NCBI GenBank assembly: GCA_934045075.1
Contig: OW203736.1
Span: forward strand, 7,044,609 to 7,108,608
Origin: Yponomeuta sedellus
Taxonomy: Eukaryota; Arthropoda; Insecta; Lepidoptera; Yponomeutidae
Direction: 5' to 3'
Length of the DNA: 64,000 nt
The notes beneath the pieces are model-generated. The model was not told the DNA's origin and ran no database searches. It saw only the letters and a program-made list of their open reading frames with translations. This document shows, piece after piece, positions 171 to 61,854 of this stretch. A program made the translations under genes and the position numbers. Numbering within the stretch: position 1 is the first letter of the stretch; each line of letters opens with the position of its first letter.

Positions 171-706
171 GGTAGCCTATAAACGTCCCACTGCAGGGCA
201 CATGCCATCTTTCAGAAAGAGATTATGGGCTTAATTACCACGCGTGGCCTCCGTGGACTAGCAATGTTTTCCTTCACCCTTAGCGAGTGGTATTGCAACT
301 ATAACTTCACAAACGTACATAACTTAGAAAACAATTCTAAAAACCTATTTAGAGGCTAAAAATTCCACCCATGCCGGGATTCGAACCTGCGACCTTTGGC
401 TATCCGTGCCAGCGCTCTTTCCAACTGAGCTAATGGGCGACTCATTTTTGTCAGTCATGGCGAGTCGCCCATTAGCTCAGTTGGAAAGAGCGCTGGCACG
501 GATAGCCAGAGGTCGTGGGTTCGAATCCCGGTATGGGTGGATTTTTTACCCTCTAAATAGGTTTTTAAATTTGTCCTGAGCACGGGTTAGTGCATTAAAA
601 ATAATATAATTAGAAAACAATGTCATTGGTATATGTCCGCACTGGGAATCAAACCTGGGTGTCCCGCTTCGAAGTCCATTGTTCTACCCACTAGGCTACC
701 ACCGAT
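171..706 (-). mobile_element. SINE-B copy, split by a PalSINE
   Basis: Minus-strand tRNA-derived SINE. On the plus strand it runs from the 3' end (CGTCCCACTGCAGGGCAC) through the body motif GTTTTCCTTCACC to a tRNA-like head with a reversed B box near 645-660. The body is interrupted at 336-609 by a PalSINE: TTAGAAAACAAT occurs on both sides (324-335, 610-621), and removing the insert restores the order seen in uninterrupted copies such as 6873-7180. Retroposed by LINE machinery, non-coding. Confidence 0.8.
336..609 (+). mobile_element. PalSINE, head-to-head inverted dimer
   Basis: A 274-bp insertion flanked by the 12-bp TSD TTAGAAAACAAT. The left arm is the reverse complement of the tRNA-like body, starting at CTAAAAACCTATTTAG. 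The right arm is the sense body: A box TTAGCTCAGTTGG, B box GGTTCGAATCC, then GCCTCTAAATAGGTTTTTAA and the tail GCACGGGTTAGTGCATTAAA. The arms meet near 440-465 at the 5' end of the tRNA-like part. The TSD length indicates retroposition rather than a cut-and-paste foldback element. Confidence 0.85.
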
Positions 707-1699: not shown

Positions 1700-3940
1700 A
1701 CCCAAGTTGATGTTCAAACCCTTCCTAAATATTCTTTTAGTTAATACCTGTAATGAAGCCTTCACCAATCCGTGAACCGTCCAGTAGATACGCTTTTGGG
1801 CGCAAGCTCAGAGCATATTTGCTGGAGCTTCAGAAACCGCTGCTCCACTCCCTTCCAACCTCTCGCCGCAAAAACAGACACGAGTCTGTAATCGCATACT
1901 AGGGTTGTGCAACATTGTATATGTCTATATATCTTGCATTCTGTTTATTTTTAAATATATACATGAGTGCGAATTTATTATATCTAATTTCATTTATCTC
2001 AATATAAATTAGACCTAGTTATTTATTTGTGTATAATTTTATTTGTATATTATTGTAGCTTATTCTATTACGTAGTTAAAGTATTTAAGTATCTTTTTTC
2101 ATTCTGTATTTATAATACATTTTATATTCATATGGGTATTATTCTATATAACATAATTATTATAAGTATTCTACTCTATACGGTATTATTAATTCTTTAG
2201 TATTGTTATTGCCCATGATTATATCGCACCGCAGTCTGTGACGCTCGTGGGGTAGCACCTGGCACTGACTGAAAATCAGCGCTGAAGCATCCTTCAGCAT
2301 ATTGCTGAGTTAGTTGCCATTTAAAGCAGCAGTGACACGCCGTGACCTTTCGTTTTTCTTCGTTCTTTTTGTTTTTTGGTGAATGTTATGTTTAGTAATA
2401 TGTTTTAAGTTTCTTACTGTGGCGTGTGCACGGTTTCTATAATAAATATTTTTTTTCTTCTTCTTCTTAATGTCACTGGAGATTTGTTTAGTATATTTTT
2501 TTATAATAACCCAAGAGCTACTGTGAATTGCCAACTTTACCATAAAACAGCTGGCAAAGACCTTTTAAATTATCTTAAGAGCTTGATACCACCCAGTGAC
2601 GCTGAAGTGCGACGTTAAAAGTGGTTTAAGAGTAACACGGTGACCTTAAGTAAGTCCGGGCTGTTAAGCAAAGACAGATCACCAGTCGCGTTACTCGTAA
2701 AATAATCCTTAGTACTTCATAACGTCTTTACAAAAACGCTTCTCTGCCGTTTTTTTTTAAAAAGGTTTCTCGCACGCGGCATTTTTTCAATCCACAACCG
2801 GCCAGGATCAAGATAGGAGCGGCTGAGGGCCATTCGGAAACTGTCTTAATTAGTCTGCGCTACGATATCGCGTAGCTCCGATGCCAAAAGGCATACGAGG
2901 CAAGATTTCTGCGCGATATTGTAAGGAGAGTGATGTCGAGAATAGGTGTCCAAAGTTTAATCTTTTGAACTAAATACACTATAGAGGTTATTTTTTTTCT
3001 AGTGCTTCATCTTTCTTTCAACGGACATAGTGGGTCTGTGCTCTTATTAGGTATGGTTATTTCAATTTAGTTTTACAATTACATTCCGTTGATATTGGAT
3101 ATTGGGGGAAAGATAATGTTACGGGCTAGGGTTCTGGATTTGGATGTAAAACGCCAATGACAACTTCTTAGGATTTATTCACGCAGGGTCTGGTCTGCAG
3201 GTCTTCACGACACGAAGTCCACACGTAGATTCCAATCGCAGGTCTAATCGAAGTCCAATAGTATCGCTGAGGTCGTAGGTTATCGGTCATATCGCAGGTA
3301 TGTTCGCTCGAAGTTTGCTCGCTTTTACATCTCACTTTTACATCTACCGTAATGTTACTTCTGTTGATAATATTTTTTTTTGCTTGAGTTATTTTATCAT
3401 TTCATTTTCTACTTTTTTGTCTTCATATTGTTTCGTTATTTCTCTTTTTTTATTTCCTTGTTTTTTTTTCTCTTATCTTACTATGTAGGTAAATTTACAG
3501 TTACTTCGGCTTCCCAGAGTCGGGGTCCGTGCCTTTCGTAACATGTTGCAATTTTTGTTTTCCCATTTTCTGTTCCCGCTTCTACTCCACCTACAGTTTT
3601 ACAGTTACACAAGTTGGTACTAATTGTGTGGTACCTTACACGTATGCTTACTTATCTTACTCTAAGTGTCTAACTAAGTCTTAACTAAGTGTCTTAACCA
3701 TTTTTTTTTGTGCCGTACAATGCTGGTTTTGTTTATTGTTTGGTTTTCTTTTGTGGCACTGTACTGCACAAGTTTTTTTGTGTATTGTTTGTATTACACT
3801 GTCTGATTTTTTTATATTTTTTTCCCCATTGCACAATTGATTGCCGTCATACAGTATTTTTTACTAGTACGGAGGGTAGTAGTATCTTTTTGGCTGTTGC
3901 TAGTTGCATATTTTAATAATTTTTGTACTATGCTATGATT
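1700..3940. other. no gene seen; AT-rich
   Basis: AT-rich DNA with long T runs (2990-3000, 3370-3475, 3810-3830). 2270-2310 (CAGCGCTGAAGCATCCTTCAGC) resembles 31990-32030 and may be an old repeat. The short open frames in the T-rich part have hydrophobic, low-complexity products. Confidence 0.5.
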
Positions 3941-3997
3941 ATACTATTTTTATTTTTAATGCACTAACCCGTGCTAAGGACAATTTTAACCTATTTA

Positions 3998-4705
3998 GGT
4001 CCACTTGCGCCAGGCTGGGTTAACACGGTTAACTCAGAGTTTAAAACTACTTCGGAGTTAAATTCTAATTATGTCTTGTACCACCAAGAGTTAGGAGATA
4101 ACCACGAGTTAAATTTGTAAATTTTTAACCCGCCGATGTGGGCGGGTTAAGTCAACTAACTCTGGGTTATTAATGTCAAAAATGGCTCCGTCAGTTCTTT
4201 TGTTCTCTATTATCTGCTTGAATTTCGCTACTACGTCGCACAGTAGCAGATTATCTTCATTTGTGAAATTTGGGCCGCGTACCCGAGGTTTCTTTTCCAT
4301 TTTTCCGTCCATTGTAAAATTAAAATAATACCACACGCAACAACAATGAAAACCTAACCAATGACAACTATGACAAGACAAGACAGACAGGACGACTGAC
4401 AGTAAACAACAGTCATTGCGACTAAGAACCATATGTCATTTCAAATCTGACAGAAAGGAATAGACATATTCAAAGTACTGCAGAGCGAGAGAGAGAAGTA
4501 CACTTAAATCATTCAGCATTCGTCCTACTATATTTGGCCGGATGTAAAAAGAATGAATGAACATGACAATAACCTCGGGTTACTTGACTCTGGGTTATTT
4601 TGTACTGGTGCAATATAAACTGTGAGTCTAAAATTTGAAAAATTAACACTGAGTTAATAAACCTCGGGTTATTTATTTAACTCCAAGTCTTGGCACAAGT
4701 GGACC
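3998..4705. mobile_element. PIF/Harbinger-like DNA transposon, non-autonomous
   Basis: 708 bp with terminal inverted repeats starting GGTCCACTTGCGCCA (left) and GGTCCACTTGTGCCA (right, reversed), flanked by the 3-bp duplication TTA (3995-3997, 4706-4708). The TTA duplication and the encoded Myb/SANT-like remnant both fit PIF/Harbinger elements, which use 3-bp TWA-type targets and carry a separate Myb-like protein. No nuclease-type transposase frame was seen, so this copy cannot move alone. Confidence 0.75.
4109..4312 (-). pseudogene. Myb/SANT-like DNA-binding protein remnant of Harbinger element
   Basis: A 67-residue frame starting at the internal Met (MDGKMEKK). An upstream Met would add 40 residues of hydrophobic, cysteine-rich sequence unlike the family, so I prefer the internal start. 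The segment KPRVRGPNFTNEDNLLL followed by VVAKFKQIIENKRTDG matches the first helices of the Myb/SANT-like domain found in Harbinger accessory proteins and related insect genes: an NFT..E start, an L.LV..YK..IENK.TD core. The expected W...I...F helix is missing; the frame diverges after about 45 residues. In active Harbingers this protein binds the termini and helps bring in the transposase. Here it is truncated and lies between the TIRs. No regulatory signal was assigned. Confidence 0.6.
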
Positions 4706-4826: not shown

Positions 4827-6140
4827 TAACAATAACGATCTAGTTTGTGGGAAGTCAATTCCACTGCCAAACTTCTACATATTTTGACCGGTTTACAGCA
4901 GGAATTCCTGACCGGAGTCCGGTCAGGATATTATACCTACTATAGAAATGTAAGTGTTTATATTAATTTTGTATTTTATATTGTATTTTAACATCTCGCT
5001 GTATGTAATTTGTTTCTAGCAATAAATAATATTTGATTGATTGATTAAAACTTATTTACAGTGTTATCGCTGCTGCCCGGCACATATTCGTTGCTTCATA
5101 GTTATTTCGGGATATACAGTAAATAAATAGTTTTAGGTAAATTAGAAAGTGTGTCTTGTGCGATATTCACACTTATGTTTTAGTGAATAAGGACTACCGT
5201 AGGTACAGTTTGTGTACTTGGGAAGGTAATAGGGCCTAGCTATTTGAGGTTGATCTGAATCTTTTAGTAATGCTTGAGTTGGTATCGTGAGGAAGTAGAC
5301 AATTTGCAAATAATTGGATCTGCAAGATGTTATGAACGATGATGCGTGTTCGCATATACTGTCGATGGCATCATAAAGTACTAGTTTTTGCCCGCGACTT
5401 TACTCGCGTAAAAGTTTTGACTAGACTAAAATCTATTAACATTTAATAACATAACGTAACTTTCATATTATTTATGTATGTATTGTATTTTTATTTTAGT
5501 TTTAGCGCTATGTAATTATTGAAATCTTAAAGCCCCAAATATTTATAGCAAGTGTGATTTATTGTGTTAGATTAATATAACAATTATTATTGTTACAGTT
5601 GGTCACATAAGCGCTTTACGTAACATTCCTTACACAATTGTAATTCAGTAATTCTTACATTTAAGAAATATTATACCAGTTACCGCAGAAGATGTATAAA
5701 CTTATATTGTAAATTTAATAATTAGCACAATTAAGGAACGCGGCCCCTCAGGCTCGCTTTTAATTTGTAACTCTCATAGGTAGTTTCATTGTACCGTTTT
5801 TGAGATTTTTTTTGTTTTATTTTCAAATTTTTTTTTACCTACCCTCTATTTTTATACGAGGTACAATCGTCAACCTTAGTCTCCTTTTGTGTCGAAGTAA
5901 AATAATTGAAAAGAATCAATTTCGCCTCGTAACGTGAATACGACGATGTGCTCTAAGAAGCCGATTTCTCCTACATTTGAAATATTTATTGGCATTCGTA
6001 GTCAACAGAAAAAAAACCTTGTTCGATCTCACAATGGAGCAAACTATAGTCGCTCAGAAATACCATCGCGTATCATACAAGTACAAGGTATTTCGAAGTG
6101 TAAACACAATATAAATAATATTATTCAGGTTATATTCTTT
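4827..6140. other. no gene seen; minor repeat remnants
   Basis: 5010-5047 is a retroelement-like end (CAATAAATAATATTTGATTGATTGATT). 5385-5440 holds TGCCCGCGACTTTACTCGCG, similar to 44335-44380 and to Helitron-like lepidopteran repeats. The rest shows nothing recognisable. Confidence 0.5.
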
Positions 6141-6143
6141 TTT

Positions 6144-6440
6144 TAATGCACTAACCCGAGCTAAAGACAATTTTAAAAACCTATTTAGAGGCTAAAAATT
6201 CCACCCATGCCGGGACTCAAACCCGCGACCTCTGGCTAACCGTGCAAAGGGCAAGTGATGCAAATTGCTTCAGCCGGATGTTGCTGCCTGTACATATTTC
6301 GGAGAGTGTTGTAAAGAGGTTTGAGGTTTTACTGATGCCGGTGAGTTGCCCATTGGCTCAGCAGCACGGTTAGCCAGAGGTTGTGGGTTCGAATCCCGGC
6401 ATGGGTAGAATTTTTAGCCTCTAAATAGGTTTTAAAATAA
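6144..6440 (-). mobile_element. PalSINE, inverted dimer
   Basis: Reverse tail and tRNA-like body (GCACTAACCCG ... CCTCTGGCTAACCGTGC), then a switch near 6247 into the sense upstream domain (GGGCAAGTGATGCAAATTGC) and a sense body ending GCCTCTAAATAGGTTTTAAAA. Read on the minus strand this is the usual order: inverted arm from the oligo-T edge, junction, sense arm, tail. The TSD is not clear. Confidence 0.75.
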
Positions 6441-12110: not shown

Positions 12111-12119
12111 TTTATATTC

Positions 12120-12325
12120 TTTTTTTTATGCACTAACCCGTGCTAAGGACGATTCAAAAACCTATTTAGAGGCTAAAAATTCCACCCATGCCGGAATTCG
12201 AACCCGCGACCTAGTCCACGGTAGTCACCCATTAGCTCAGTTGGGAGAGCGCTGGCACGGTTAGCTAGAGGTTGCGGGTTCGAATCCCGGCATGGGTGGA
12301 ATTTTGAGCCTCTAAATAGGTTTTT
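12120..12325 (-). mobile_element. PalSINE, inverted dimer
   Basis: TSD AAAAAGTTC (12111-12119, 12326-12334). On the minus strand: inverted arm from TAAAAACCTATTTAGAGG, junction near 12213-12230 (the arms meet at different bases of the tRNA-like body), sense body and tail to GCATAAAAAAAA. About 206 bp. Confidence 0.8.
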
Positions 12326-12409
12326 AAAAAGTTCGCTTGTTAAAAGATATATTTTACTTAATTAAATTTATATTCGGTATGAAATTGAGAGGATATCAAG
12401 TGAATATCG

Positions 12410-12455: not shown

Positions 12456-12489
12456 CTGTGCCAAACTGCGTAGTAGTTTTTGGCGGATA

Positions 12490-12797
12490 AACTATTTTCT
12501 ATTTTTGATGCACTAACCCGTGCTAAGGACAATTTTAAAAACCTATTTAGATGCTAAAAAATCCACCCATGCCGGGATTCGAACCCGCGACCTCTGGCTA
12601 TCCGTGCCAGCGCTCTTTCCAACTGATCTAATGTGCGACTCACTCATCAGTGAAATTTCGAACCTCTTTACACTATTCTCTGTATTACGTACAGGCAGCG
12701 ACATCTGGCTGAAGTAAATTGCATCACTTACAGCCCCGAGTACCAACTTTGCAGTAAGGTTTTTACATCGGAATTTTAGCCTCTAAATAGGTTTTTA
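12490..12797 (-). mobile_element. PalSINE with long sense arm and short inverted arm
   Basis: TSD GCGGATA (12483-12489, 12798-12804). On the minus strand: short inverted piece TAAAAACCTATTTAGAGGCT, then the full upstream domain (CCGATGTAAAAACC ... ACGTAATACAGAGAATAG), tRNA-like body and tail. Inverted arm only about 25 bp. Confidence 0.8.
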
Positions 12798-16539: not shown

Positions 16540-16784
16540 AAATAAATTGTATTAATTAGATTTGTAACTTTCATCTTACACTCAACTTTAGATATGAATA
16601 TTATAAAAATACTCATTAAGTAGTAATCCCAACTAAAGTATCATCTTAAGTATAAGCAATGCGCTATAATTTTTAAGCCGTCTTGATAATTTTATGTATG
16701 GCTTATAAAATAAATAAACTTATGAAAAAAATCTTTATAACAAAGGTAACATAACATTAACATACAGACACATATCATAAGTAC

Positions 16785-16960
16785 ATCTGCCTACCATGCA
16801 AGAGGTTCCAGATTCGAACCTTGGCTAGGGACAAAAAAATCCCAGGTCTTTGATATTTACATGTTTGTGATGTCGCTGTTTCTGGTTCCCACGACACAAG
16901 GTATCCTAGTGTTGGGGCCAGAAGTAATGTATGTACCTGTATGTGAATATTATGTTTTGT
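16785..16960 (+). mobile_element. SINE-C copy, 5'-truncated
   Basis: Begins inside the tRNA-like part (TCTGCCTACCATGCAAGAGG, B-box-like GATTCGAACCTTGG) and continues CCAGGTCTTTGATATTTACA to GGGGCCAGAAGTAATGTATG. Confidence 0.7.
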
Positions 16961-17010
16961 TTATGTTACGTAAAAACAACCTTGACAAATAATAAAGTCA
17001 ACAAACTTAC

Positions 17011-17058
17011 CAGGAATAGCAATCGCCGATTGGTTTCTCATTCAGAGGTCGTCGACAT
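17011..17058 (-). other. putative 48-nt exon, copy 1
   Basis: On the minus strand: pyrimidine-rich acceptor CGTCTTTTGTTTTCAG, 48 nt, then donor GTAAGTTTG. One frame is open (CRRPLNEKPIGDCYS, entering with a split codon); the frame from the first ATG stops after six codons. A second 48-nt segment at 57452-57499 has the same strand, length, first bases (ATG..GACG), and near-identical acceptor and donor surroundings. Either a microexon or 5'-UTR exon of a minus-strand gene whose intron fills this window, or a repeat carrying splice-like ends. No product recognised. Confidence 0.4.
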
Positions 17059-17237
17059 CTGAAAACAAAAGACGGTAAACAATTAGACTTAAGTCCCAGC
17101 AGACCCACATTTATTTAGGTATGTGTACTGTTCATTCAGCGGTTCAGTGGGGTGTATTAACGAGTGGACACTTAGGTAATCGAAGGCGAAAACGAATAAG
17201 CTATTTTAATGATGTTACTTTTACAGGGTTGGTCGTG

Positions 17238-17615
17238 GAATTCGATATCAACCCTCATAATATGACTCAACGGCTGGGGCACGGGTCTCTTCCTGCATAG
17301 CAGAAAGGTTAGGGCATATTCCACCGCGGAGGCCAAGTCCGAGTTGGTGGATGATTGAAAAAGAGTGGCTCGCCTTACTATCAGAAGTTATAAAGCCACC
17401 TGTAAGGCCTGTGACATAGCTTAACGACTGCCATTAATCACAACTGCACTTAATGACAACCGGCAACAACAACTTAACGTTCCTTGCACGGAAAATATGC
17501 CAGTAGCGGTAGTTACGGGATAGTCACCTTTCCAGCATCTGACCACGCCCGTTGTTGCTTAACCCAAGTGATTAATTTCAATGACTCGGTTCGACTAGGC
17601 CACGAAGCTCTTCAC
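17238..17615 (-). mobile_element. 5S-SINE, full-length type
   Basis: Minus-strand reading: head GAAGAGCTTCGTGGCCTAGT, 5S-like part TTGGGTTAAGCAACAACGGG, then the linker GCAGTCGTTAAGC and the LINE-derived 3' block ending GAGGGTTGATA. Diverged copy. Confidence 0.75.
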
Positions 17616-17830: not shown

Positions 17831-17890
17831 TAAGATAGTAATACAATTTTTAAAATTTTCTACTTGCGAATCTAAGAAACGGCTGATATT

Positions 17891-18251
17891 TAAAAACCTA
17901 TTTAGAGGCTAAAAATTCCACCCACGCCATCATCATTCAACAATTTCATCATGTGGATACAGCGATATCATTCCGATGTAAAAACCTAACTGCAAAGTAG
18001 GTACTCGGGGCTGCAAGTGATGCAAATTACTTCAGCCAGATGTCGCTGCCTGTACGTAATACAGAGAATAATGTAAATAGGTTCGAAATTTCACTGATGC
18101 TGGTGAGTCGCCCATTTGCTCAGTTGGAAAGAGCGCTGGCACGGATAGCCAGAGGTCACGGGTTCGAATCCCGACACGGGTGGAATTTTCAGTCTCTAAA
18201 TAGGTTTTTAAAATTGTCCTTAGCACGGGTTAGTGCATTAAAAAGAATATA
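17891..18251 (+). mobile_element. PalSINE, short inverted arm and full sense unit
   Basis: TSD GGCTGATATT (17881-17890, 18252-18261). Inverted arm TAAAAACCTATTTAGAGGCT to CACCCACGCC, then spacer ATCATCATTCAACAATTTC, then the complete sense unit: upstream domain from ATCATGTGGATACAGCGATA, tRNA-like body, oligo-T and tail. Good reference for the full unit. Confidence 0.85.
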
Positions 18252-25840: not shown

Positions 25841-25903
25841 TAACCACAGGCGTTTAAATGTGCCTTTGTATCTGGCATCTATTATCTAGCTTTCACGTAC
25901 TTA

Positions 25904-26068
25904 TTAAAAAACCTATTTAGAGGCTAAAAATTTCACCCATGCCGGGATTCGAACCCGCAACCTCTGGCTATCCGTGCCAGCGCTCTACCAATTGAGCCAA
26001 TGGGCGACTCACGGCATCAGTGAAATTTCGAACCTCTTTACACCATTCTCTGTATTACGTACAGAGAA
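25904..26068 (-). mobile_element. PalSINE copy ending at the internal oligo-T
   Basis: TSD TTTCACGTACTTA (25891-25903, 26069-26081). Read on the minus strand it starts inside the upstream domain, carries the whole tRNA-like body and ends AATAGGTTTTTTAA, with no tail. So a retroposed copy exists whose 3' end is the oligo-T run that forms the outer edge of the inverted arms elsewhere. Confidence 0.8.
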
Positions 26069-27270: not shown

Positions 27271-27284
27271 TTAGTTTAGTTATT

Positions 27285-27409
27285 ACACTATTTTTATTTT
27301 TAATGCACTAACCCGTGCTAAGGAACAAATTTAAAAACCTATTTAGAGGCTAAAAATTTCACCCATGCCGGCATGGGTGAAATTTTTAGCCTCTAAATAG
27401 GTTTTTAAA
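27285..27409 (-). mobile_element. minimal PalSINE hairpin, tRNA part lost
   Basis: TSD TTAGTTTAGTTATT (27271-27284, 27410-27423). The element is the reversed tail followed by a perfect palindrome of about 40-bp arms with no loop, centred at 27369/27370 (CCCATGCCGGCATGGG). Both promoter boxes are gone. 125 bp. Confidence 0.9.
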
Positions 27410-27529
27410 TTAGTTTAGTTATTTTAATTCAAAATCATCGCCAATATTGACGTTTCATTATTTTATCGAGTTAGCATCTTGATTGAGCCGAATGGAACTG
27501 AATTAAAAGAAAAACGACAAGTGCAAGTC

Positions 27530-31867: not shown

Positions 31868-31935
31868 TAATTTGTATTATTAGTCTTTGTAAATTTGTTC
31901 CTTAGCACGGGTTAGTGCATTAAAAATAAAAATAG
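31868..31935 (+). mobile_element. PalSINE tail-only copy
   Basis: TSD AATATTAGTGTG (31856-31867, 31936-31947). 22 bp of unrelated sequence, then the tail TTTGTTCCTTAGCACGGGTT AGTGCATTAAAAATAAAAATAG. Severely 5'-truncated, as expected for target-primed insertion. Confidence 0.75.
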
Positions 31936-39517: not shown

Positions 39518-39529
39518 AGGTTGATATGA

Positions 39530-40124
39530 TTTAAAAACCTATTTAGAGGCTAAAAATTTCACCCATGCCGGGATTCGAACCCGCAACCTCTGGCTATCCG
39601 TACCAGCGCTCTACCAATTGAGCCAATGGGCGACTCACGACATCAGTGAAATGTCGAACCTCTTTACAATATTCTCTGTATTACGTACAGGCAGCGACAT
39701 CTGGTTGACAGAGGTTGCGGGTTCGAATCCCGGCATGGGTGAAATTTTTAGCCTCTAAATAGGTTTTTAAATTTGTTCCTTAGCACGGGTTAGTGCATTA
39801 AAAATAAAAATGGTGTAATCATGTGGGTACAGTGATATCGTTCCGATGTTAAACCTAACTGCAAAGTAGGTAGTCGGGGCTATAAGTAATGCAATTTGCT
39901 TAAGTCAGATGTCGCTGCCTGTACGTAATACAGAGAATATTGTAAAGAGGTTCGAAATTTCACTGATGTCGTGAGTCGCCCATTGGCTCAATTGGTAGAG
40001 CGCTGGTACGGATAGCCAGAGGTTGCGGGTTCGAATGCCGGCATGGGTGAAATTTTTAGCCTCTAAATAGGTTTTTAAATTTGTTCCTTAGCACGGGTTA
40101 GTGCATTAAAAATAAAACTGGTGT
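39530..40124 (+). mobile_element. PalSINE, large inverted dimer
   Basis: TSD AGGTTGATATGA (39518-39529, 40125-40136). Inverted arm from TTTAAAAACCTATTTAGAGG through the reversed tRNA-like body and part of the upstream domain, junction near 39708, then sense body-tail, a tail-to-head junction (AATAAAAATGGTGTAATCATG), and a second full sense unit with tail. So the sense side is a tandem dimer. Confidence 0.85.
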
Positions 40125-40484
40125 AGGTTGATATGAATTAGGATTAGTGTGTCATAATTTAAACGAACAAATGAACGACCTGCTAGGTTTTCTGTTTCGT
40201 TCCCTGTCTGCAATTAGTAAACGTCCATGCTCCAAGTAAACTCCAACTAAGGGTATAGGAAACAATGAGGTTTTACAAATAATCTGACAAGAGAAGGAAG
40301 AAAAGCATGTATACTAAACTTTAACAGCAATATCCCAAAGAAACTGGCAAGTTTTAATATTCGTCGCGCGATCACGGCTTACATATTAGACCAGGTCTAG
40401 CACCATGATGATAATATTGTACTAACCTTAGCCTCTAAGGGCTAAGGATTGTTCCGAACTTCCCACACTAATAATGAAATCTCA

Positions 40485-46716: not shown

Positions 46717-46996
46717 TTTAAAAACCTATTTAGAGGCTAAAAATTCCACCCATGCCGGGATTCGAACCAGCGACCTCTGGCTATCCGTGCCAGCGCTCTA
46801 TCCATCTGAGAGATGGGCGACACGCCCATTAGCTCAGTTAGATACAATATTCTTTGTATTACTTATTATTTAGGGGCGGAATTTTTAGCTTCTAAATAGG
46901 TTTTTAAAATTGTCCTTAGCACGGGTTAGTGCATTAAAAATAAAAATAGTATAAAGTGGCAAATTGCATTTCTCAACATATTTCATTTAATATAAA
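46717..46996 (+). mobile_element. PalSINE inverted dimer with inverted copy of its 3' flank
   Basis: TSD GAAATGAAATAT (46705-46716, 46997-47008). Inverted arm from TTTAAAAACCTATTTAGAGG, junction near 46823, sense body with a foreign middle, tail to AAAAATAGTATAAA. Then, before the right TSD, 46957-46990 (GTGGCAAATTGCATTTCTCA) is the reverse complement of the flank at 47000-47035. So the insertion carries an inverted copy of downstream genomic DNA. Confidence 0.7.
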
Positions 46997-51034: not shown

Positions 51035-51205
51035 GTAACTTCATAATTTTCTTTTGTAATGTTTGCAGAGGGTCGTAAATTAACAGTTAATGCTTTCAAA
51101 AAGACGACTGTCACCTGAGTCTTCCGGGACCACGGTACTTGCAAAAGTGCTGAAACGTCGGAAAATGTAAAATTTAACGAGTAAATATCCGTGCAAGTAC
51201 AGTTT
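51035..51205 (+). mobile_element. FB2 copy, sense, no inverted arm
   Basis: AACAGTTAATGCTTTCAAAA AGACG, GGGACCACGGTACTTGCAAA AGTGCTGAAACGTCGGAAAA, CGAGTAAATATCCGTG, CAGTTTTTGTT. Diverged relative to 56690-56855. Confidence 0.65.
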
Positions 51206-51261
51206 TTGTTAAGTAATACTATGAAAATACTATGCCTTGGTGTACATGCAATAAATAATAT

Positions 51262-52154
<893 letters not shown>

Positions 52155-52648
52155 GCCAAAGCATTAGTTAAGTTGATTGTTTTACAAAAGTAGGGAAAAC
52201 ATAAGTGCTAGAAAACATAAGTGCTAGAGATAATACAAGAGTACAATATTCAGTTTTTGTGTTTTATTTAATAGTACCTACTAGTTACTCCTTTACTGGA
52301 AGATTTTTTTTCTAAAATTTAAGGCGGTATTTTTATACCATTAGCATAAATACTGATACTAAGGTGATAATGACAACAAGCCGGCCAGCGTCCATTAAAA
52401 CTATAAAATACATCGAACGAGTTCGCTAATTGGTATTTTTATCGAGTTAAGTAGCCCATGTTGATAAAGTATTTAAAAATAAACGCGCCATATCCGGTAA
52501 TGAAACTCCACCGGAAGTAATATCAAAACATCGTAATTTCTGCTCGGATAAGAAAACTACCAGAAAGAACGTAATCAACAGTCGTAATTTAGTCGAAACA
52601 AAACACATTAATTCTGTTAATGAAATAAAACAGAATTACAATGGAAAA
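52155..52648. other. no gene seen
   Basis: 52153-52167 (TATGCCAAAGCATTAG) resembles the Rep-E text at 16128-16143, so the array and its FB2 neighbour may sit inside Rep-E. The rest is unrecognised. Confidence 0.4.
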
Positions 52649-59874: not shown

Positions 59875-60072
59875 GAAGCGCTCGTGGCCTAGTGGAACCA
59901 AGTGATTGGTACCAATCACTCGGGTTAAGTAACAGCAGGCGTGGTCAAGTGCTGGATGGGTGACGAATCCGTGACTACCGCGAGTGGCATTTTTTCCGAG
60001 CGCTTCCGTGCTTCGCAAGGCATGTTGGTTGAGCCATTGGTGCCGGCTGTCATGTAATGGCAGTAAGCCATG
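59875..60072 (+). mobile_element. 5S-SINE, 3'-truncated
   Basis: GAAGCGCTCGTGGCCTAGTG, CAATCACTCGGGTTAAGTAA CAGCAGGCGTGG, GCTGGATGGGTGACGAATCC, GGCATTTTTTCCGAGCGCTT CC, then the linker to AATGGCAGTAAGCCATGTTA. Lacks the LINE block. Confidence 0.7.
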
Positions 60073-60100
60073 TTAAACTATGTTGAAATATAATCAATGT

Positions 60101-60828
60101 TTAAAAACCTATTTAGAGGCTAAAAATTTCACCCATGCCGGGATTCGAACCCGCAACCTCTGGCTATCCGTACCAGCGCTCTACCAATTGAGCCAATGGG
60201 CGACTCACGGCATCAGTGAAATTTCGAACCTCTTTACAATATTCTCTGTATTACGTACAGGCAGCGACATCTGACTTAAGAAAATTGCATTACTTACAGC
60301 CCCGACCACCTACTTTGCAGTTAGGTTTAACATCGGAACGATATCACTGTACCCACATGATTACACTATTTTTATTTTTAATGCACTAACCCGTGCTAAG
60401 GAACAAATTTAAAAACCTATTTAGAGGCTAAAAATTTCACCCATGCCGGGATTTTTTAGCCTCTAAATAGGTTTTTAAATTTGTTCCTTAGCACGGGTTA
60501 GTGCATTAAAAATAAAAATAGTGTAATCATGTGGGTACAGTGATATCGTTCCGATGTTAAACCTAACTGCAAAGTAGGTGGTCGGGGCTGTAAGTAATGC
60601 AATTTTCTTAAGTCAGATGTCGCTGCCTGTACGTAATACAGAGAATATTGTAAAGAGGTTCGAAATTTCACTGATGCCGTGAGTCGCCCATTGGCTCAAT
60701 TGGTAGAGCGCTGGTACGGATAGCCAGAGGTTGCGGGTTCGAATCCCGGCATGGGTGAAATTTTTAGCCTCTAAATAGGTTTTTTAAATTTGTTCCTTAG
60801 CACGGGTTAGTGCATTAAAAATAAAAAT
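60101..60828 (+). mobile_element. PalSINE, largest palindrome (728 bp)
   Basis: TSD AATATAATCAATGT (60087-60100, 60829-60842). Left: reversed body from TTAAAAACCTATTTAGAGG, reversed upstream domain to CCCACATGATTA, reversed tail, reversed body end. Turn near 60440-60455 with a loop of about 18 nt. Right: sense body end, tail, AATAGTGTAATCATGTGGG junction, upstream domain, complete tRNA-like body, oligo-T and tail. The inverted arm lacks the outer tail, so the palindrome is offset: it starts at the oligo-T while the sense side ends at the tail. Confidence 0.9.
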
Positions 60829-60842
60829 AATATAATCAATGT

Positions 60843-61020
60843 CTGAGGAACCGTGGCTTGGAATACCGCTCCGGAGCATAGTTGATGCAAAGGATATCCC
60901 TAGCAGTGCAGCGCGGTAATGCTGCCAGCGTTATGGGAATCTTTGGGTCAGATATGTCTCGGGGCGGTTTGATTTTTTGTAATTTTGTGTGTGTGTAATT
61001 TATTTTTTTGTGTGTTTAAA
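60843..61020 (+). mobile_element. LINE-J C-terminal remnant
   Basis: Frame QRISLAVQRGNAASVMGIFG continues SDMSRGGLIF, then T-rich 3' UTR with TGTGTGTG. Best-preserved LINE-J motif here; a PalSINE inserted immediately upstream of it. Confidence 0.65.
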
Positions 61021-61102
61021 TGACCATTTTGATTATTTACTAATATTATTTTATATCATATGACGATACTGTTTTTGATTTATATAGTTTATGTTACCTA
61101 TT

Positions 61103-61600
61103 CTTTTATACTATTTTTATTTTTAATGCACTAACCCGTGCTAAGGACAATTTTAAAAACCTATTTAGAGGCTAAAAATTCCACCCATGCCGGGATTCGA
61201 ACCCGCGACCTCTTCGCGAGCTCAGTTGGATAGAGCGCTGGCACGGATAGCCAGAGGTCGCGGGTTTTTAGCCTCTAAATAGGTTTTTAAAATTGTCCTT
61301 AGCACGGGTTAGTGCATTAAAAATAAAAATAGTATAATCATGTGGGTACAGCGATATCATTCCGATGTAAAAACTTAACTGCAAAGTAGGTAGTCGGGGC
61401 TGTAAGTGATGCAAGCTACTTCAGCCAGATATCGCTGCCTGTACGTAATACAGAGAATATTGTAAAGAGGTTCGAAATTTCACTGATGCCGGTGAGTCGT
61501 CCATTAGCTCAGTTCGATAGAGCGCTGGCACGGATAGCCAGAGGTCGCGGGTTCGAATCCCGGCATGGGTGGAATTTTTAGCCTCTAAATAGGTTTTTAA
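61103..61600 (-). mobile_element. PalSINE, large inverted dimer
   Basis: TSD TACCTATT (61095-61102, 61601-61608). On the minus strand: inverted arm TTAAAAACCTATTTAGAGG, reversed body, upstream domain and tail, a second reversed body piece; turn near 61213 (CTCTTCGCGAGCTC region); then sense body and tail. 498 bp. Confidence 0.85.
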
Positions 61601-61854
61601 TACCTATTGTATTGTTTGCATATGTGACATTTTTCACTAACAGTATAGTCTTACGATAAAGTGTTTTAGTACAAATCCTAGCAGCAATTCCAAATCAATA
61701 AACCACATTTTATTATTTAAATGGGTGACATCAAAAACCAAAGTGGGTTAACCCACAACTGAAAGCGGTTCAGAGGTTTGTCATACTTTAAACATAATTA
61801 TGATTAGACACCAATTACAGTAGAATAATAAGGCTGCCTATATACTGCCTCTTT

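Follow-up and report, generated by a model that had tools for sequence, protein, structure and literature searches.

The SINE of Yponomeuta sedellus described here, which has a predicted tRNA-like part, inserts as head-to-head palindromes whose two outer edges correspond to two fixed positions of the element, called A and T, one on each side, and the Penelope-like elements (PLEs) of the same genome insert on a matching plan. The palindromes lie between target-site duplications (TSDs), their arms are asymmetric, and for a few insertion sites uninterrupted relatives lack the insertion. The SINE shows the features published for PLEs and is most simply read as being mobilised by a PLE enzyme; we consider it very probable that this tRNA-derived SINE is mobilised by PLE reverse transcriptase and endonuclease, with cDNAs started from both target ends at A and T.

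SINE Unit and Samples

The window is the whole 64-kb stretch of DNA analysed (C16:7044609-7108608), part of a genome of 657.5 Mb in 57 contigs. Our sample of 254 kb consisted of the window and 19 loci of 10 kb from the same genome, of which four adjoin the window; a further 30 kb, comprising 3 loci with 6 clusters, was processed later with identical settings. The sense unit of the SINE is ~308 nt long and consists of a body, followed by a tRNA-like part and then a tail (CTCTAAATAGGTTTTTAA-ATTTGTTCCTTAGCACGGGTTAGTGCATTAAAAATAAAAATAGTGTAA). RF00005 was above the gathering threshold of Rfam in several SINE copies, and the unit is predicted to contain the tRNA-like internal Pol III promoter by which tRNA-derived SINEs are recognised. 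We found 57 SINE clusters in the 254 kb with a joining gap of 45 nt and 56 with a gap of 60 nt; if the sample is representative, the genome would hold SINE copies of the order of 10^5. Rfam detected no hammerhead ribozyme in the SINE stretch 60001-61700 of the window (E ≤ 5), and the motif CTGANGA is absent from the SINE unit. Families of miRNA hairpins matched the palindrome below threshold, which we put down to its hairpin shape. A search of the genome with the SINE tail as DNA query gave no match, but such a search skips very common words and its result is uninformative.

Palindromes in the Window

A sequence-only reading of the window had listed ten intervals as head-to-head palindromes of one repeat, and unit mapping recovered all ten as such (Table 1). 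They share one plan, as that reading held, but the order in which it placed the inverted arm first does not apply throughout: the copies at 6144, 12120, 12490, 27285, and 61103 carry the element on the opposite strand, with the TTAAAAACCTATTTAG edge on the right. The arms of the 60101-60828 copy are 340 nt long, 99% complementary, and 18 nt apart; those of palindrome 10 are identical across their overlap of 108 nt.

Table 1. Mapped SINE features of the window, in window coordinates
Feature	Position	Strand	Evidence and remarks
Palindrome 1, inverted arm, edge A	330..444	-	unit mapping; TSD TTAGAAAACAAT; empty site
Palindrome 1, sense arm, edge T	462..604	+	unit mapping
One-armed copy, only edge T	3935..3998	-	unit mapping; no TSD by script (score 4)
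Palindrome 2, edge-T arm, element on - strand	6133..6243	-	unit mapping; weak TSD, score 7
Palindrome 2, edge-A arm	6253..6438	+	unit mapping
Palindrome 3, edge-T arm	12115..12212	-	unit mapping; TSD score 9
Palindrome 3, edge-A arm	12223..12328	+	unit mapping
Palindrome 4, edge-T arm, 285 nt	12488..12773	-	TSD score 11, around GCGGATA
Palindrome 4, short edge-A arm, 24 nt	12774..12797	+	unit mapping
Palindrome 5, edge-A arm	17888..17928	-	unit mapping; TSD GGCTGATATT
Palindrome 5, edge-T arm	17948..18247	+	unit mapping
One-armed copy, only edge A	25903..26064	-	unit mapping; TSD score 13
Palindrome 6, edge-T arm	27282..27374	-	unit mapping; TSD score 14
Palindrome 6, edge-A arm	27365..27415	+	unit mapping
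One-armed copy, only edge T	31886..31935	+	unit mapping; TSD score 7
Palindrome 7, edge-A arm	39529..39703	-	unit mapping; TSD score 13
Palindrome 7, edge-T arm, 417 nt, >1 unit	39709..40125	+	unit mapping
Palindrome 8, edge-A arm	46717..46821	-	TSD score 5 by script; displaced 12-nt match by eye
Palindrome 8, edge-T arm	46874..46954	+	unit mapping
Palindrome 9 (60101-60828 copy), inverted arm, edge A, >1 unit	60100..60453	-	TSD AATATAATCAATGT
Palindrome 9, sense arm, edge T, >1 unit	60453..60838	+	unit mapping
tRNA-like part of SINE unit	60684..60759	+	ARAGORN: tRNA-Ser(GGA)-like; Rfam RF00005, 38 bits at 60687-60755
Start site A (...CTAAATAGGTTTTTTA) within sense arm	60771..60786	+	pattern match; mapped edge coordinate
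Tail from start site A to T	60787..60835	+	predicted small GCAC/GTGC hairpin; mapped edge coordinate
Palindrome 10, edge-T arm	61106..61213	-	unit mapping; TSD TACCTATT
Palindrome 10, edge-A arm, >1 unit, internal rearrangement	61220..61600	+	unit mapping

Two Fixed Edges and Their Reciprocal Pairing

The SINE arms stop at either of two fixed edges, A (...GGTTTTTAA) and T (...AAAATAGTGTAA), which are separated by ~45 nt. On the 3' side of an arm, taken in sense, we assigned unit positions 24-37 to edge A and 57-82 to edge T; old copies align short, and their edges are less exact because the reference was taken from one copy. Simple two-strand clusters make up 18 of the 56 clusters in the 254 kb, and every one of them is head-to-head (-+), the opposite order (+-) being found 0 times. 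All 18 combine an A edge with a T edge, with A on the left in 9 and T on the left in 9. With independent choice of the two ends, A+A or T+T would be expected in about half of the palindromes; the binomial probability of 18/18 at 0.5 is 3.8e-6. The later 30-kb sample added three further simple palindromes, again all A+T. The sequence-only reading had described a fixed outer edge but overlooked that both edges are fixed and that two different RNA positions are used reciprocally. Beyond the two-armed plan it described, one-armed clusters are common (34 of 56), with 14 ending at edge A, 15 at edge T, and 5 unclassified.

Complex clusters were excluded from the palindrome counts (C16 sample 88769-89075, L009:4223-4518, L011:1527-1766, and L015:1810-2255 in the 254 kb, and L091:2795-3407 in the 30 kb), and among these L011:1527-1766 resembles T paired with T. 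Visual inspection suggests that three clusters scored as one-armed, L016:5845 and two pieces in L019, belong to palindromes; these L016 and L019 palindromes are A+T by eye and stay among the 34 one-armed clusters, outside the palindrome count.

The SINE palindrome at L019:8876-9313, whose edges we read by eye as T and A, has its arms separated by ~240 nt of unrelated sequence; it looks as though a third template had been copied at the junction. At L015:1810-2255, SINE pieces are nested and copies of the target sequence are repeated between them, possibly through repeated template or primer switching.

Target-Site Duplications and Empty Sites

The duplications flanking the insertions, as claimed from the sequence alone, stand out clearly from chance: the TSD score is at least 8 in 29 of the 55 SINE clusters not cut by a locus end, compared with 5.7% of randomly paired flanks. 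The SINE insertions carry the short TSDs, variable between copies, of PLE-type insertion. The interval 6144-6440 had been reported as having no clear TSD, and its score is indeed weak (7). At 46717-46996 the claimed duplication scores only 5 by script, but a 12-nt match (GAAATGAAATAT) is visible by eye, displaced by ~42 nt of extra sequence. These ~42 nt, which separate the T edge from the displaced duplication (window 46954-46996), seem by eye to contain an inverted repeat.

For 27 insertions, we joined the flanks and aligned them to uninterrupted relatives. Such relatives span the site in 3 of the 27 cases, namely window 330-604, L011:5569-5829, and L010:814-1204; the first two are palindromes of the set of 18 and sit inside copies of other repeats. 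The relatives of L011:5569-5829 clearly hold one copy of the duplicated bases. Those of window 330-604 are consistent with a single copy but more diverged, and the relatives spanning L010:814-1204 are also more diverged than those of L011:5569-5829. A single target copy at empty sites, which the sequence-only reading had named as a check of the insertions, is in this way clear at one palindrome and consistent with the alignment at another.

Penelope-Like Elements of the Same Genome

PLEs have been described as a third class of eukaryotic retroelements. We searched the genome with a PLE reverse transcriptase probe sequence and obtained 139 scored matches among 587 candidates (best E 9e-43). By lineage labels assigned in the present analysis, 115 of these belong to PLE1, 22 to PLE2, and 2 to a third family with in-frame stops. 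PLE1 has, as a rule, frames of up to 791 aa and a tandem period of ~2705 nt, and PLE2 an 817-aa frame in L027. In the ORFs of both lineages RVT_1 is above the Pfam cut-off, and a GVY...YIG motif is visible by eye in both translations; the Pfam GIY-YIG domain reaches 15.1 bits in PLE2 against a cut-off of 22.6 and is not listed for PLE1. The genome search with PF01541 (GIY-YIG) returned a single match, in L020, and a YIG-motif scan of the first 254 kb gave three matches, none of them judged to be GIY-YIG; the PLEs were detected only through the reverse transcriptase probe, not PF01541. In PDB, the two ORFs match other reverse transcriptases, with best E values of 0.065 (PLE1) and 1.1e-8 (PLE2), and these matches therefore do not name the family of either lineage. 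No hammerhead ribozyme was found by Rfam at L027, L024, L026, L022, or L001 (E ≤ 0.5).

Among the 139 matches, neighbours of the same lineage less than 6 kb apart are in -+ order in 27 cases, on the same strand in 13 (at about the tandem period), and in +- order in 0. The PLEs, too, have two edges: PLE1 stops at ...CAGTTTTAATTA, at the start codon, or 35 nt further at ...CTTAGAAAATACTATA, and PLE2 at ...ACTTTTTAATGC or ~43 nt further at ...GATTCTATACAACA. Outer ends were fetched for 20 of 21 PLE1 pairs and are readable in 17, pairs 7, 10, and 20 having one unreadable edge; A+T is found in 16 of the 17. The exception, pair 17, combines A with an edge between A and T (one script labelled it A,A). 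Pair 9 is A,T, the A,A given by a first script being owed to a substitution in the tail. For PLE2, six pairs and the C2 array were examined (7), and the 6 readable ones are all A+T; the C16 pair, labelled T,T by script with a TSD score of 5, was left out because its left side continues into the next tandem unit, leaving the outer edge unseen. The TSD score is at least 8 in 22 of 23 PLE pairs (control, 4.9%), the sole miss being this C16 pair. Across the three families, 43 of 44 readable palindromes are A+T (SINE 21/21, PLE1 16/17, PLE2 6/6). The edge plan is the same in all three, and thus the SINE and the PLEs insert by one plan.

The SINE tail and the PLE1 edge region show a weak likeness, in register (AAATAGGTTTTTAA.../AAACAGTTTTAA...), with an alignment score that was reached by 11 of 3000 shuffles for a young tail and 76 of 3000 for an old one. 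The shuffle-tested alignment of the SINE tail with PLE2 gave no similarity, and a comparison of the SINE with six PLE loci gave no match better than E 0.5 outside SINE copies. PLE insertions are found in or beside the A-T region of SINE copies at L048/L049, L088+L027, L061, and L067; PLE1 pair 1 and the C2 PLE2 array are clearly nested in this region, and PLE1 pairs 7 and 10 abut it. The SINE tail is perhaps a preferred target of PLEs.

Arms, Junctions, and the RNA Template

The claim that the junction differs in every copy holds for the whole set, as the 18 SINE palindromes have 18 different pairs of arm lengths. The inner arm ends differ by more than 40 nt (46-340 nt) in 14 of the 18 and lie within 20 nt of each other in 4, and the A arm reaches further than the T arm in 12. 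The arms overlap by 1-10 nt at 8 of the 18 junctions, are flush at 2, and are separated by 5-52 extra nt at 8, where the extra length may partly be lost alignment.

To compare the arms, we used the 16 of 18 palindromes with an overlap of at least 25 nt. Arm mismatch is 4.6% within a palindrome and 7.6% between palindromes of like divergence, and rare bases are common to both arms at 7 of 62 sites within palindromes versus 40 of 1752 between them, the control pairs not being independent. The arms of one palindrome are thus more alike than those of different palindromes and therefore share a source, which may be RNAs transcribed from one locus or perhaps a single RNA. These observations bear on the double priming proposed in the sequence-only reading. 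The independent junctions support its idea that two cDNAs were primed separately and then joined 5' to 5' within the TSDs, and the proposal largely stands; its clause that each cDNA was made on its own SINE RNA stays unproven, given arms from one source.

Eleven arms are longer than 308 nt (e.g., 39709-40125 and 60453-60838 in the window). C16 sample 16705-17391 (in L001), a further example, comprises 2.2 SINE units with a TSD, and L010:814-1204 comprises 1.25 units with a TSD; the SINE occurs in tandem and partial tandem units, as PLEs do. Because arms exceed one unit, the template was probably a tandem (multimer) or circular RNA and not a simple monomer. Of the 11 over-length arms, 6 have their start within the upstream tRNA part, at unit positions 237-290, and the other five at 1, 2, 12, 39, and 54, the last one being cut by the locus end. 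Starts at 237-290 would fit a Pol III transcript of the form tRNA-tail-body-tRNA-tail. The inner ends of several arms cluster at SINE unit positions 136-140, 172-176, and 1-13, which may perhaps be structural stops for the reverse transcriptase.

Proposed Mechanism and Alternatives

PLE machinery, rather than LINE machinery, is most likely behind SINE insertion. The PLE enzyme would make a staggered cut in the target, giving duplications of roughly 8-14 nt, and each of the two target 3' ends could prime one cDNA. Copying would begin at fixed internal sites of the SINE RNA, on one strand at A (after GGTTTTTAA) and on the other at T, which lies ~45 nt nearer the 3' end of the RNA. The cDNAs would stop upstream at varying points and then be joined 5' to 5', and the product would be a head-to-head palindrome, flanked by target duplications, that carries the tail at one outer edge and lacks it at the other; extension on one side only would yield a one-armed copy with edge A or T. 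We infer that the SINE is mobilised by a PLE enzyme, that cDNAs are primed at both target ends and united by end joining, and that one RNA, a multimer or a circle, serves both of them. Reciprocity of A and T is what we would expect if one two-site RNA, or a dimeric enzyme with one RNA, served both ends. The reciprocal use of start sites across the families suggests that the two cDNAs are coupled, which would also account for the tail being optional. A bolder proposal, which we hold about as readily as its opposite, is that PLE insertion is an obligatory reciprocal double priming on one RNA or RNA dimer and has been captured by a tRNA SINE that reached ~10^5 copies; if so, the tail and the inverted pLTR would be two faces of one coupled reaction.

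Self-priming, in which fold-back of the first cDNA or of an antisense transcript lets the molecule prime its own copying and the palindrome pre-exists or forms during insertion, has been proposed for PLEs (PMC3846280) and would suit the 4 of 18 palindromes whose arm ends are less than 20 nt apart. The arms of the other 14, however, are not what a fold-back with a short loop would produce, and the pairing of A on one side with T on the other is left unexplained; because the arms are unequal, self-priming is not favoured as a general route, and we regard it as very unlikely. In L1 twin priming, the second target strand primes a second cDNA and an inversion results, the inverted and direct segments being by definition non-overlapping. 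The SINE arms, in contrast, overlap by 24-308 nt in 18/18 palindromes, and their second start is fixed and reciprocal with the first. Twin priming, with which the sequence-only reading had compared the insertions, is for these reasons a poor parallel, and the PLE plan fits instead. LINE machinery acting in an L1-like manner is less likely again than self-priming: SINEs usually depend on LINEs (PMC8969392), and L007 has a frame that by eye resembles a LINE endonuclease/reverse transcriptase, but the PLEs of the same genome show the identical plan.

The sequence-only reading had also offered a palindromic master RNA whose hairpin is skipped by the reverse transcriptase during copying. Rare bases common to the arms of one palindrome more often than in the control would agree with such a master. 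Against it stand the 18 different arm-length pairs, with 14 of 18 differing by more than 40 nt, the one-armed copies of both edge types, and the PLEs that insert by the same plan; independent junctions argue against both a palindromic master and a simple hairpin, and we find this explanation hardly credible. The least credible of all is an assembly or fold-back library artefact, or a fold-back DNA transposon. Long inverted repeats are prone to artefacts, but the assembly consists of contigs of chromosome size, the insertions have independent target duplications and empty sites, and the arms are unequal with ends that are not symmetric.

Comparison with Published Systems

The models offered for PLE insertion in the consulted texts are self-priming (PMC3846280, 2013) and internal initiation on both strands (PMC11167929, 2024), and our preferred reading, a SINE moved by a PLE enzyme that starts at A and T, can be set beside both. 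According to the more recent work, a purified PLE cuts and extends both target strands, copying begins at two adjacent internal RNA sites with the genomic tail between them, and the hammerhead ribozyme is dispensable for insertion in vitro (PMC11167929); in the sections of that paper drawn on here, no difference in start site between the two strands is noted in vitro. PMC3846280 describes pLTRs in inverted, head-to-head order, one of which bears a 31-bp tail, together with a TSD, and PMC8969392 counts second copies in tandem, inverted pLTRs, and 3' extensions among the features of PLEs. The SINE resembles PLEs (Penelope, Poseidon PAc, bdelloid Pen2a) in its tandem or partial tandem units, head-to-head inverted repeat, one-sided tail (30-40 nt in published PLEs), short TSD, and 5' truncation; it differs from them in having no ORF, a tRNA-like sequence, and a 45-nt tail. 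With metazoan retrozymes, which according to the portion of PMC7761336 used here have no motif telling which autonomous element moves them, it shares a short non-coding, tandem-capable unit and a suspected dependence on PLEs, but those non-autonomous elements bear a hammerhead, whereas the SINE is tRNA-derived and has no detected hammerhead (type I). It has a tRNA-like part and high copy number in common with LINE-mobilised tRNA SINEs such as those of heliconiine butterflies (PMC6685494); it is unlike them in its two start sites, head-to-head double insertion, and over-length arms.

A literature search by titles and abstract openings returned no paper on a tRNA SINE with PLE edges, and the reciprocal A/T rule is not stated in the consulted sections of PMC11167929, PMC3846280, and PMC8969392. 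As far as this literature extends, both a tRNA SINE that bears the PLE signature without a detectable hammerhead and the reciprocal start-site rule are new. An abundant SINE with small, countable insertions brings large numbers to the question of PLE insertion, and the A/T edge plan provides a sequence signature for finding further PLE-moved SINEs.

Other Observations in the Window

The flank at 59900-60080 contains a stretch (GGCGTGGTCAAGTGCTGGATGGGTGAC) that we take, by eye, to resemble a 5S rRNA-derived repeat; Rfam gave no match there. At 51185-52193, a long microsatellite of the ATCTATCT type keeps three frames open, with YLSI repeats.
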